A stretch of 23,673 bases of DNA from a virus, in IMG/VR virus record IMGVR_UViG_3300008267_009441, positions 1 to 23,673 of that record; one strand, written 5' to 3'. The notes beneath the pieces are model-generated. The model worked only from the letters and a program-made list of their open reading frames with translations, did no database searches and had not been told where the DNA came from. This document shows positions 135 to 11,339 of this stretch, in pieces. Both the position numbers and the translations under genes were made by a program. Within the stretch, counting starts at the first letter, position 1, and each line of letters begins with the position of its first letter.

Positions 135-413
135 CTAACTAAAACTATCTATTACTTCCGCATCAAACTCGTACTCTACGAGCGCCTCTAATGTAGCATC
201 CGCAAGCTCTCTCTCTGCAAAGGCTTTTACTACATAACTTCCTTTGTCATCAATGAGATAAGCGCAAGTGGTTGCTTGAGTCTGTTCGTATCCCAGTATC
301 ATTTGTAGGGATTCTATGACGTACTGGAACTCCAAGTCGTCACTATTGTGGATTACAACTTGGTACCTACGACTCTTCTTACCATTTCTTGAGCGGGCAG
401 CTGTCATTCTCAC
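135..413 (-). CDS. clpS: ClpS-like N-degron adaptor protein
   Basis: A 92-residue protein. Residues 17-90 follow the ClpS core: a YxVxxxN strand (Y17 to N23), a helix with YVIESLQ at 31-37, a second helix around GYEQTQAT, then DDKGSYVVKAF and a final helix. Cellular ClpS binds N-terminal hydrophobic residues and delivers proteins to ClpAP or ClpCP. It aligns without gaps to E. coli ClpS through the N-D-D segment: N23 matches the pocket Asn. The position equivalent to pocket His66 is Asp (D55), so specificity may differ. Residues 1-16 are basic and variable. The ATG lies 35 nt inside the end of the upstream gene; Met3 is an alternative start. The fold assignment is from motif reading; the role in infection is unknown. 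Confidence 0.65.
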   Translation of the reverse strand: MRMTAARSRNGKKSRRYQVVIHNSDDLEFQYVIESLQMILGYEQTQATTCAYLIDDKGSYVVKAFAERELADATLEALVEYEFDAEVIDSFS

Positions 414-765
414 TTCGTACTTTAGCAGCTAATGCACAGCCACAATGATCACAATACATTCCTTTTATCTGATGAACGTCGTCTCCAACCATTATGGTAT
501 TCAACTTTCCGTTATACATCGCCAATGGACAAGTACTACATATAGCAGCTCTTGCTTTAGCCATCTTCTCTATTGCTGTATCCTTCACTACCATGTGAGA
601 GAACCCACTAACAATGTCTTGGAACTTGGCTTGGGATGATGGCTTACGTTTTAGCTTACGCCCTATCCAATAGAATGGCATAGCTAATAGTACAAAAGGG
701 TATATAAGCATTGCTACAATTGCTCGTATAGCGTACTTTATTCTTTTCTTGGTTCTTCGTTTCAT
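379..765 (-). CDS. membrane-anchored zinc-ribbon phage protein
   Basis: A 128-residue protein with a basic N-terminus (MKRRTKKRIK), one predicted membrane helix at about 12-34, a basic KLKRK stop-transfer segment, and a C-terminal cysteine module. The module has C76-x2-C79, then C105-x2-C108-x-C110 and C123 followed by a terminal PLKKW. I recognise the pattern ICxxCP...CxxCGC...K...CPLxKW from small proteins of marine T4-like phages, where no function is known. By the positive-inside rule the zinc-ribbon domain would face the cytoplasm. Its start overlaps the HNH gene's stop as ATGA (762-765), and its 3' end overlaps the ClpS-like gene. It is the only clear membrane protein in the window. Confidence 0.75.
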   Translation of the reverse strand: MKRRTKKRIKYAIRAIVAMLIYPFVLLAMPFYWIGRKLKRKPSSQAKFQDIVSGFSHMVVKDTAIEKMAKARAAICSTCPLAMYNGKLNTIMVGDDVHQIKGMYCDHCGCALAAKVRSENDSCPLKKW

Positions 766-3779: not shown

Positions 3780-4386
3780 CCTTTTAATTTTTGATAGGTT
3801 CTACTAATTCCCTCAGCTAAACCTACTAGAGGGCTTAGTACTGGCTGATATTGTCCAATGTAAGCATCTCCTACTCCATCCGTTTGTATCTTGATTTCTA
3901 CTTTATGCTCATCTAATGAGTTTATGCAGTTTGCTATCTCTGATAGTGTTAGGTTGTAGTTGTAGCAACAATCCACTTCTTGGAGAATAGGATCCTTTGC
4001 GGTGATGTAAAAGTTAACTAACGATATCAAATCTTCCATATAGAAGAAATCCATATGCTTATTCTGATGGATGGTTATTGGTTCATGATTTATATGCCGA
4101 ATGTTATGAATCTGCCAAATTGTTCTTCCATTGCTACAAGGTTATAGTACATGAGCAGGTTTCGGTTGACGACGCTTTCGTCATCTATCGCCAATCTTGT
4201 TCCTCCAACTACAGCTGTATGGACAACTACATCAAAATACTTACCTTCAAACCAACGAGAGGTTTGACTGTAATTTGTAAGATCAAAGTCTTGGCGGGTT
4301 GCTATAACGATCTCATACTCACCTCGAAGTCCTTGACGAAGACTCTTGGCTATGTACCCATTCCCTCCAGTAATTAGTATTTTCAT
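3776..4386 (-). pseudogene. NAD-dependent sugar epimerase/dehydratase, broken by internal deletion and frameshift
   Basis: Two reading frames carry the two ends of one short-chain (extended SDR) enzyme. The 5' part (4386-4090, 98 aa) begins MKILITGGNGYIAKSL, with the GxxGxxG nucleotide-binding loop, and ends FGRFITFGI then stop. The 3' part (ATG 4054 to 3776, 92 aa) begins DFFYMEDLISLV. Its frame stays open upstream and encodes RHINHEPITIHQNKHM directly before that ATG, which fits the family. The middle of the protein, including the YxxxK catalytic pair, is absent. From recall of full-length relatives (about 260 aa) roughly 50-70 residues are missing, and the ends are in different frames. The full-length family resembles GDP-fucose synthase-like reductases. 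A sequencing or assembly collapse is an alternative explanation. Confidence 0.75.
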
Positions 4387-4859
4387 CGTTTTAAGTTTAT
4401 ATACGTAGGTGATTGCTTTGTGAGCGAGTACTGGAAGCTACTGACCAACTCGCTATCAGTTTCAGGCCAGCTTGAGGTTATGTTATGAAAAACACCCATT
4501 ATCTCTCTATCGTCATGCGACCAGTGCGAAAATCCTAGATAGCCGTAATCTCTATCCCTTCCACCTCCAACAATGTTTACAAGAATGCTTTCATGATCAA
4601 GGTAGTTACGGATCATTTCAAATGGTCTATAAATTGCGAAAGGGGTAATCGAATAAACATATGGTATTTTTCCATCCATAGCCAACCCAATAGCCGCTCC
4701 CATCATCGCCATCTCAGAAGATCCTACATTATAAAATCTATCTGGGTAGTCGTCTCTGACTGCGTCCCATAATCCATATCCAAGATCTCCGGTGATTAAG
4801 TAAATGTCTGGGTTGGATGCCATTTCGGCGTGTAGTAGTTGTGCAAATGCTCTTCTCAT
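4383..4859 (-). CDS. transketolase-like protein, pyrimidine-binding subunit
   Basis: 158 residues corresponding to the PYR domain of transketolase-type thiamine-diphosphate enzymes. DIYLITGDLG at 18-27 opens the domain. RFYNVGSSEMAMMGAAIGLA carries the conserved catalytic Glu (E49) that activates the cofactor pyrimidine. IPYVYSITPFAIYRPFE continues the fold. The usual C-terminal third domain is absent, as in other split transketolases of polysaccharide clusters. It overlaps the PP-domain gene by ATGA (4856-4859), so the two subunits would be made in equal amounts. The pair should transfer two-carbon ketol units; a specific sugar substrate is not evident. The stop overlaps the broken epimerase start. 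Confidence 0.85.
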   Translation of the reverse strand: MRRAFAQLLHAEMASNPDIYLITGDLGYGLWDAVRDDYPDRFYNVGSSEMAMMGAAIGLAMDGKIPYVYSITPFAIYRPFEMIRNYLDHESILVNIVGGGRDRDYGYLGFSHWSHDDREIMGVFHNITSSWPETDSELVSSFQYSLTKQSPTYINLKR

Positions 4860-5470
4860 AATTCCATGGCTTGTTTGTAGTTCTCTTCTGACATTACATG
4901 GTAGTGTGCATTGAGTCCTTTTAAGAAAGGATACTGTTCTACAGTTGTATATCTTAGTTCTATACTAGGTAAGAAGGCCTTGAGTCTTGTTGTGATATAA
5001 TCAACATCAACTTCTTTATAAGCACAGACTCCGTTTATATTAACAAACACCTCTATGTTATCAATTCCTAACTCCTCAATCGTCTTCAGTGACTCCCAGA
5101 TGCTTCCTTCAGCAGACTCACCGTCACTAATTAAAACCCACACTTTTCTAGTACGATCAGCTAAGGCTCTTCCTAATGCAATTGGTAAGCCTAGTCCTAA
5201 GCTACCAGTAGAGCAATATATCTTGTTCTCCTCGTCTCTGTGTGGATGACCTCCATGCTTGGTAAATAACGCATCAGCATCTATTCCATGGTACTTTTCA
5301 ATACACACGTACATAGCCAAGGATGCGTGTCCTGATGATAGTATGAAGATATCCCTTTCATCCATCTTTGAATAAATCTCATCGACTACATCAACGCTAG
5401 ATAGGTAGCTTCCTAAGTGGCCTAGTCTATGTTTATAGGCTATCTCAACAATTCGCTTTTTTAAGTTCAT
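4856..5470 (-). CDS. transketolase-like protein, diphosphate-binding subunit
   Basis: 204 residues corresponding to the N-terminal (PP) half of transketolase. Visible features are GHLGSYLSSVD at 17-27, SSGHAS at 45-50, GGHPHR at 73-78, the glycine-rich STGSLGLGLPIALG at 87-100, and the cofactor motif DGE at 116-118 with VNINGV at 143-148, spaced as in the classic GDG-to-N thiamine-diphosphate/Mg2+ motif. The downstream gene supplies the PYR domain, and together they should form an active heteromeric enzyme. Two-gene transketolases occur in bacterial sugar and antibiotic clusters, where they move two-carbon units. The start overlaps the methyltransferase stop as ATGA. Confidence 0.85.
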   Translation of the reverse strand: MNLKKRIVEIAYKHRLGHLGSYLSSVDVVDEIYSKMDERDIFILSSGHASLAMYVCIEKYHGIDADALFTKHGGHPHRDEENKIYCSTGSLGLGLPIALGRALADRTRKVWVLISDGESAEGSIWESLKTIEELGIDNIEVFVNINGVCAYKEVDVDYITTRLKAFLPSIELRYTTVEQYPFLKGLNAHYHVMSEENYKQAMEL

Positions 5471-9678: not shown

Positions 9679-10353
9679 TTATCCCCTTCCCACAAAGATC
9701 TTTGTTATGTAATTTGTTTTATTTGTAAACTCAGTATTCTGATTGATAAACTCTCTTAACGTATTTAGTCTGATATCAAATCCTAACTTATGTAAAAATA
9801 TTCCCCAAATTCTCTCACTGGCCTGAGCTTCTAATTTGTTTGTAGGTAGTATTGTGTTTAATCCTAATCGCTTTAAGTCATCTAAAATTGTTCGTTTACA
9901 ATATAAAGTAGTTCCAAATAATCCTGCTAATGTACTCAATTCCACACCTGTTAAGTCTAGTCCTACTTCAGCTATTTTGGACATGCTGTAGTTATACTGT
10001 ACATCCGAATCGAAAGGCAGTCCTTCAAAAAAACCGAATACTGTGAGGTCATTTTTACTTATTGGAGTTAAATTTTTATTAACAATCATACTATCGTGTA
10101 GTATGTAGAAAAACTCAACATCAGGGTACTTTTCGTAACAGTGCCAAATAGCTCCATCAATATGGTGTTTATTTTCGATATCTTCAACAACTACACCATA
10201 CTGTTCAATCTCACTAAAGTAGCTCTTGTCCGGAGAGTTACTATCAACTACACAAATTGAATCACTGTTTCCTGATTCTCTAATACTTTTAATGCAGTTT
10301 ACTATACGTCTTTGACCTGTATTTTTACAAGGAATTACTATCATTGTCTTCAT
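9679..10353 (-). CDS. GT-A fold glycosyltransferase (GT2-like)
   Basis: 224 residues. The strand MIVIPCKNTG at 4-13, VVDSNSPD at 35-42 and FFYILHDSMIV at 81-91 (HDS in the position of the metal-binding DxD) outline a short GT-A nucleotide-sugar binding domain. The remaining region is helical with a GLFGTTLYCKR strand pair. The ED motif is less obvious, so catalytic residues cannot be assigned with confidence. The start overlaps the HAD-kinase stop by 4 nt (ATGA). It resembles small glycosyltransferases in surface-polysaccharide clusters. The donor is unknown, and it could instead act on an unusual acceptor because the DxD is degenerate. Confidence 0.65.
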   Translation of the reverse strand: MKTMIVIPCKNTGQRRIVNCIKSIRESGNSDSICVVDSNSPDKSYFSEIEQYGVVVEDIENKHHIDGAIWHCYEKYPDVEFFYILHDSMIVNKNLTPISKNDLTVFGFFEGLPFDSDVQYNYSMSKIAEVGLDLTGVELSTLAGLFGTTLYCKRTILDDLKRLGLNTILPTNKLEAQASERIWGIFLHKLGFDIRLNTLREFINQNTEFTNKTNYITKIFVGRG

Positions 10354-11339
10354 AGTGCGTCTATTAAGTTACTGGTAATATCTGTCAGTTGCTTTTTGCG
10401 ATTACATACTCTAACAGATTCACATGCAATTAGTATATCTAGCTCATTTTTTTCAATACCTAACTTATATACATATTGATCATAGCATATGTTGTAAAAA
10501 TCTGAATCTAAGGTATAGTATAGTATGCTGTATAGGTGTTTAGCAGCATCTAGTACATACGATTGGTAGATGTCCTCTGAGTATATTGGATCAATTAAAT
10601 ATAGTTTATTAGCACTCTCTATCTGGTTGTATATTGAAAAATCTCCATGGTTAAATGTATTAGGTGGATTAATTGTACTTAATTTTTCAAGTAGCTTGCT
10701 TCTATTTTGTATAGTTGGATTGTTCTCTAAGTGATTTTTAATTCTCTCAATGTAAGTACTAAAATTTACTTTATTTGTTGGTAAGGTATTTTTAAACTTA
10801 AGCAGAGTATCCATTACCAGATCTACGTTGCTGCAATACGTTCCTTCTATATACCTAGTTGCTATAGTATCTCTATCATAACTTAAAACTCCTGGTATGT
10901 TTAGTTTAATCTCTAAAGCTTTGTTGTACCAAGCTACTTCATCGCTGCTGTTTTTTGTTACCTTTACAACGCAGTTATTGATTCGTCGAACTTTATTAGT
11001 TGTAAATTTTGAGTCTAACTTTTCATAAAAAATAGTACTATCTATATTGTATGCTCTATCATCTATATAAGCATCTCCGTACTCCTTACTGAACGATAGT
11101 TTATGAAATTTAATACCATTAGTATGCAACCAATTAGATATAATGTTCCTATACTTCTTTTCTCGTTGAATAATAGTTGAGCATGATTTGGATCCCCTAG
11201 CAGTTACTATTTTTACTATATTTCCATCATCATACATCTTATTTACTAAAGAAGCTATTTTAGGATTGACATACATAGCATTAATATCAGCTGTATCTCC
11301 TAAAGCTAATGTACCGTCAAAGTCTATTACAACAACCAT
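10350..11339 (-). CDS. HAD phosphatase fused to an aminoglycoside/choline-kinase-like domain
   Basis: 329 residues with two enzymatic parts. Residues 1-100 are a HAD domain: DFDGT at 6-10 with nucleophile D6 and acid D8, TARGS at 46-50 (motif II Thr), a lysine further on (K80/K85), and DDRAYN at 93-98 (motif IV). Residues 120-329 read as an APH/choline-kinase fold: VVKVTK (K126/K129) as the ATP-contact strand, HGDFSIYN at 231-238 (HGDxxxxN catalytic loop), and LIDP at 248-251 (metal Asp D250). The downstream ATGA overlap and the neighbouring nucleotidyltransferase suggest stepwise phosphorylation and nucleotide activation of a small group or sugar, as LicA and LicC do for phosphocholine (analogy). 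The substrate is not readable. Confidence 0.75.
   Translation of the reverse strand: MVVVIDFDGTLALGDTADINAMYVNPKIASLVNKMYDDGNIVKIVTARGSKSCSTIIQREKKYRNIISNWLHTNGIKFHKLSFSKEYGDAYIDDRAYNIDSTIFYEKLDSKFTTNKVRRINNCVVKVTKNSSDEVAWYNKALEIKLNIPGVLSYDRDTIATRYIEGTYCSNVDLVMDTLLKFKNTLPTNKVNFSTYIERIKNHLENNPTIQNRSKLLEKLSTINPPNTFNHGDFSIYNQIESANKLYLIDPIYSEDIYQSYVLDAAKHLYSILYYTLDSDFYNICYDQYVYKLGIEKNELDILIACESVRVCNRKKQLTDITSNLIDAL

Follow-up and report, generated by a model that had tools for sequence, protein, structure and literature searches.

What does a phage gain from a ClpS-type adaptor whose substrate pocket has itself been altered? In bacteria, ClpS is a small adaptor that selects substrates of the Clp protease according to their N-terminal residue. 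Phage ClpS proteins have been described previously (PMC7824862, PMC6102473), and the steering of bacterial N-degron proteolysis by phages has been proposed for jumbo phages (PMC7824862); our literature search found no experimental test of this jumbo-phage idea. The question is posed anew by a small gene in the window, i.e., the whole stretch of 23,673 nucleotides analyzed here (IMG/VR record IMGVR_UViG_3300008267_009441), whose product belongs to this known kind of phage protein and, as judged from its sequence, is a variant of it with the pocket combination N-S-D...D.

A divergent ClpS gene

We are close to certain that this ORF is a real gene and that its product belongs to the ClpS family and adopts the ClpS fold. 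ClpS (PF02617) is the sole Pfam family matched (42.4 bits vs a cut-off of 23; E 6e-11), and an independent ClpS profile, built leaving out window-type sequences, recovers the protein with 53.0 bits as against 9.0 for the best of 2000 shuffles. In PHROGs it matches a family named ATP-dependent protease (1.6e-5). The cut-off of the NCBIfam ClpS equivalog is not reached (best 23.2 bits vs 149), and the weak matches to these models mark the protein as a divergent member rather than an ortholog-level match. The gene is under purifying selection in the two phages discussed below, with a dN/dS of 0.16-0.26 over the whole gene by three methods and of 0.13-0.33 outside its overlap with the upstream gene. 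Across 135-413 the plus strand holds three stops. A chance ORF at 135-413 is ruled out by the dN/dS values together with the shuffles. The first-pass annotation, which had placed a 92-residue ClpS-type domain here, thus had the right family and coordinates; the coding strand is the minus strand (Table 1).

The structure prediction against ClpS that the same annotation had proposed as a check also yielded a ClpS fold. The AlphaFold model has a pLDDT of 86 (about 49 for residues 1-10), although the alignment behind the model is mostly canonical ClpS, so that part of the support for the fold comes from the family. In a Foldseek search the best solved match is the M. smegmatis ClpS (9b1p/9ayo; target-normalised TM 0.92, rmsd 0.6-0.7 Å), and next come E. 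coli ClpS structures bound to Phe or Leu peptides. ClpS chains make up the top 38 matches, and the distantly related L7/L12 domain follows (E 2.5e-6 for ClpS vs 9.8e-3 for the L7/L12 C-terminal domain).

The upstream gene, which has no match in a Pfam search and whose product gives a poor predicted structure (pLDDT 60), shares the DNA of its Cys-rich tail with residues 1-11 of ClpS. This overlap suggests that the two genes are translationally coupled.

Table 1. Features of the clpS locus and the residues discussed in the text
Feature	Position	Strand	Remarks
ClpS-family adaptor ORF	135..413	minus	92 aa; GTG start at 413, stop ends at 135; alternative ATG start at 407 (codon 3)
N-terminal extension, residues 1-16	366..413	minus	strongly basic (RMTAARSRNGKKSRR); low model confidence
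Upstream co-oriented gene	379..765	minus	35-base overlap with clpS (379-413); helix-rich N-terminus, Cys-rich tail; phrog_13558
N23 (E. coli N34)	345..347	minus	alpha-amino ligand, conserved; by alignment
S24 (E. coli D35)	342..344	minus	substituted; by alignment
D25 (E. coli D36)	339..341	minus	second alpha-amino ligand, conserved; by alignment
D55 (E. coli H66)	249..251	minus	third alpha-amino ligand, substituted; by alignment
E69 (E. coli E79)	207..209	minus	putative ClpA-docking surface, conserved; by alignment

Phage context

A clpS copy with 85% protein identity is present on IMGVR_UViG_3300042887_002597 (locus L001), a viral contig of 131 kb, where the gene order is that of the window: an HNH-like gene, a Cys-rich gene, clpS, and the same next gene. 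When viral contigs were scanned with the window protein, a two-member alignment, and the two upstream genes, this contig alone was recovered as a close relative; a first scan of genome contigs, queried with the window protein, gave no chromosomal relative. A UniProt entry from an uncultured Caudovirales phage (A0A6J5MDP1), 76% identical, is already named ClpS. The 131-kb contig is T4-like, and its terminase shares 53-54% identity with those of Flavobacterium phages (immuto) and of a Microcystis phage record. The syntenic contig and its terminase bear out the earlier claim that the gene is phage-encoded, and the terminase, along with the sequence type of the ClpS, points to a tailed phage that probably infects a Bacteroidota host. 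Neither the window nor the kin contig, which may be incomplete, contains ClpP or Clp_N; thus, any Clp partner would presumably be that of the host. As Bacteroidota genomes nearly always have a ClpS of their own (59/61 genomes of the phylum), the phage protein would be in competition with a host copy.

Almost the whole window (2499-23660, minus strand) is filled by clustered phage genes of the sugar-nucleotide and glycosyl type, including a GDP-mannose 4,6-dehydratase, a DegT aminotransferase, family 11 and group 1 glycosyltransferases, and a transketolase that is split into two adjacent half-size ORFs with a 4-base overlap (4383-5470, minus; a TPP-binding and a pyrimidine-binding half). The matching stretch of the kin contig has a partly different gene set, which suggests modular exchange. 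A further ORF (10350-11339, minus) has an N-terminal HAD/PNKP phosphatase-like and a C-terminal RIO-kinase-like match, both weak and below the Pfam cut-off, and could possibly encode a phosphatase-kinase fusion.

The pocket and its two substitutions

In E. coli numbering, the pocket of the window protein reads N34-S35-D36...D66. We take Asn47, Asp49, and His79 of Caulobacter ClpS to be the counterparts of E. coli N34, D36, and H66. In the Caulobacter protein these three residues hold the alpha-amino group of the substrate, and Asp48 (= D35) is part of the specificity pocket (PMC12493166). Alignment confirms both observations of the first-pass annotation on this site, namely that the pocket Asn is conserved and that Asp stands in place of His66; with D36 retained as well, two of the three alpha-amino ligands are kept. 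The loop that follows reads D26/L27/E28, and the gatekeeper position (40) is occupied by Phe, the residue found there in ordinary Bacteroidota ClpS. Of the established docking residues E79 and K84 (PMC12493166), the second aligns with T74, at a position that varies in Bacteroidota ClpS too. The window protein shares with the bacterial ClpS of E. coli, Caulobacter, and M. smegmatis (PF02617) the fold, N34, D36, a hydrophobic gatekeeper, V43, G69, and the size of a single-domain adaptor; it differs from them in D35S, H66D, K84T, a short basic N-terminal extension, and its residence in a phage.

The residue that truly departs from the family is S24 (D35S), which the first-pass annotation had not recorded; a modeling paper describes the D35 position as universally conserved in ClpS (PMC6274998). 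Both S24 and D55 are kept in the two phages, with the S24 codon differing silently, whereas D56, the neighbor of D55, is Ser in the copy of the 131-kb contig. Over residues 17-55 there are 13 codon changes between the two phages, of which only two (I21V and M38T) are nonsynonymous.

Asp at position 66, on the other hand, has several parallels. It occupies the H66 position in solved chains of human UBR1 (AIDKEGRRAVK), human UBR2 (TVDRDGRRSVR), and yeast Ubr1 (RIDGEGR), for which the query fragment matched the PDB chain in full, and the N-domains of these proteins recognize hydrophobic N-degrons (PMC4447728). The Asp is found there in an I/V-D-x-E/D-G context, comparable to I-D-D-K-G of the window protein, but these domains retain D35, have Glu at D36, and are embedded in a large ubiquitin ligase, whereas the phage protein has lost D35 and kept D36. 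A natural His-to-Asp change is likewise seen in the Leptospira ClpS1 (LinClpS1), which binds ClpA with a Kd of 0.44 uM and inhibits both the ClpA ATPase and the degradation of an ssrA substrate (PMC12493166). LinClpS1 resembles the window protein in this pocket position and in its altered K84; unlike it, it is chromosomal, retains the other acidic pocket residues, and has demonstrated ClpA binding (PMC12493166). The idea of a unique or disabling Asp66 was set aside in view of the UBR proteins, LinClpS1, and the loci L005, L195, and L198 (see below). Hence, of the earlier notion of an altered pocket, the observation of D55 was correct, whereas the implication that Asp66 alters or abolishes recognition is weakened by UBR1/UBR2/Ubr1 and LinClpS1; because these share the Asp, D55 alone is no proof of a decoy or of a new specificity.

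Distribution of pocket variants

The least biased view of the pocket comes from 61 chromosomal ClpS of the Bacteroidota phylum (59 genomes), drawn without selection on pocket residues; other survey patterns favored D35 and H66 or constrained positions 34-36, and only these 61 loci are free of such bias. In this set Asp is universal at position 35 (61/61). Position 66 has His 59 times and Asp twice; at position 34, 54 proteins have Asn and seven have Asp; and 47 have Asp at position 36, the rest having Glu, Asn, or Ala. Both Asp66 cases (L195 and L198, in genomes G064 and G039) represent an additional copy, as another ClpS is present in the same genome; these paralogues read D34-D35-D36...D66, carry a C-terminal extension, and form a long separate branch. 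The other viral loci are uniformly N-D-D...H (79/79), under a search pattern in which N34 and D36 were obligatory and position 35 could be either D or S. Among the ClpS examined, Ser at position 35 is confined to the window and L001 phages (the Kaldavass phage ClpS has Asn); on this comparison of sequences, D35S is a rarer change than H66D and has no precedent among them. A search of the PDB with the short pocket peptide gave no match.

Phage ClpS of the Bacteroidota type (LR756502, LR745206, and about 80 IMG/VR contigs) are similar to the window protein in being phage-encoded, in comprising the same domain in 92-94 aa, and in probably coming from the same host phylum, but the 79 viral loci read keep H-N-D-D...H and form a separate clade. 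A tree of 54 ClpS gives the window pair its own long branch near Bacteroidota ClpS, apart from the canonical phage clade, though 75 columns are too few to place the pair further. In three phage loci with a canonical ClpS (L003 3402-4231, L004 3414-4231, L214 3397-4231) the clpS gene follows a small HAD-like phosphatase gene, its family judged by eye.

Jumbo phages offer a different comparison. The ClpS of Vibrio phage 2.275.O (N-D-D...D) has the Asp66 of the window, those of SCTP-2 (N-D-N...H) and Serratia BF (N-D-S...H) are changed at position 36, and that of Agrobacterium phage Atu_ph07 (D-D-Q...E; L091 1450-1749) departs at every alpha-amino ligand (N34D, D36Q, H66E). All four thus show changes at the alpha-amino site as the window protein does, but they retain D35, and genes for Clp_N and ClpP are present in both 2.275.O and Atu_ph07, in contrast to the window and the kin contig. 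Scans with the Vibrio and Agrobacterium proteins found no members beyond Atu_ph07 itself. In several jumbo phages unrelated to the window (L005 3111-4342, L092 735-1815, L090 728-1827) a clpS-like gene comes just after IF-3; an rpsU-like gene intervenes in Vibrio phage 2.275.O, and in Serratia BF and Erwinia Kaldavass the clpS-like gene lies beside IF-3. This recurring neighborhood may reflect a link with translation.

Possible roles: adaptor, decoy, specificity switch, or reused fold

The reading that we favor, to which we give an even chance, is that this divergent ClpS of a phage docks onto host ClpA/ClpC, at the N-domain, in competition with the host ClpS. The docking itself is likely, and whether some N-degron binding is retained is a matter on which we are evenly divided. 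During infection, the phage protein would dock on the N-domain of the unfoldase in place of the host's own ClpS, and the host Clp protease would be steered away from its ordinary (e.g., ssrA-tagged) substrates and toward proteins with an N-terminus fitting the phage pocket. In such a complex the alpha-amino group would be held by the D55 carboxylate along with N23 and D25, a role that the corresponding Asp probably plays in the UBR1 N-domain. Counted against an adaptor are the loss of D35 and of K84, as well as an N-terminal extension of just 14-16 residues that is partly dictated by the overlapping gene.

The same docking could serve a purely obstructive purpose, with a pocket that no longer holds N-degrons on account of D35S and H66D; the phage protein would then displace host ClpS, stop N-degron and other Clp-dependent turnover, and thereby protect phage proteins. 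Changes at D35, D36, or H66 of E. coli ClpS impair N-degron binding. The two phages share both substitutions, and no residue but Asp was seen at position 35 of the unselected set. In addition, the docking of ClpS alone inhibits degradation of ssrA substrates (PMC12493166). However, the equivalents of N34 and D36 are kept, Asp66 does not preclude N-degron binding in UBR N-domains, and pure docking need not preserve a pocket, yet the pocket residues are identical between the two phages; we regard such a blocking decoy as rather unlikely. Less probable still is a switch of the substituted pocket to other N-termini (e.g., small, beta-branched, or Met-initiated ones), through which a particular protein of the host or the phage would be handed to host ClpP. 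The coincidence of changes at the amino-group site (N-S-D, D66) with D26/L27/E28 in the following loop would fit such a switch, as would the changes at these positions in the ClpS of Atu_ph07, SCTP-2, and Serratia BF, but the gatekeeper is the Phe of ordinary Bacteroidota ClpS. Finally, a fold shared by ClpS and L7/L12 might have been reused outside the Clp system, e.g., for binding ribosomes or phage proteins, as hinted at by the weak structural match to L7/L12 and by the jumbo-phage clpS-like genes near IF-3 and rpsU. This we consider very unlikely, as ClpS structures are far better matches, the sequence profile is that of ClpS, and no translation gene was recognized in the window neighborhood.

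Implications

The most far-reaching possibility would be that an acidic, UBR1-like alpha-amino site evolved independently in these phages and, combined with the loss of D35, confers on host Clp an N-degron specificity chosen by the phage during infection; we put this forward as a speculative proposal that we think improbable. More generally, should the protein prove to recognize an atypical N-terminus or to block the host pathway, it would directly exemplify the steering of N-degron proteolysis in bacteria by a phage. The window ClpS also represents a natural test, of bacterial size, of the reason for Asp in eukaryotic UBR1 at a position that is His in most ClpS.
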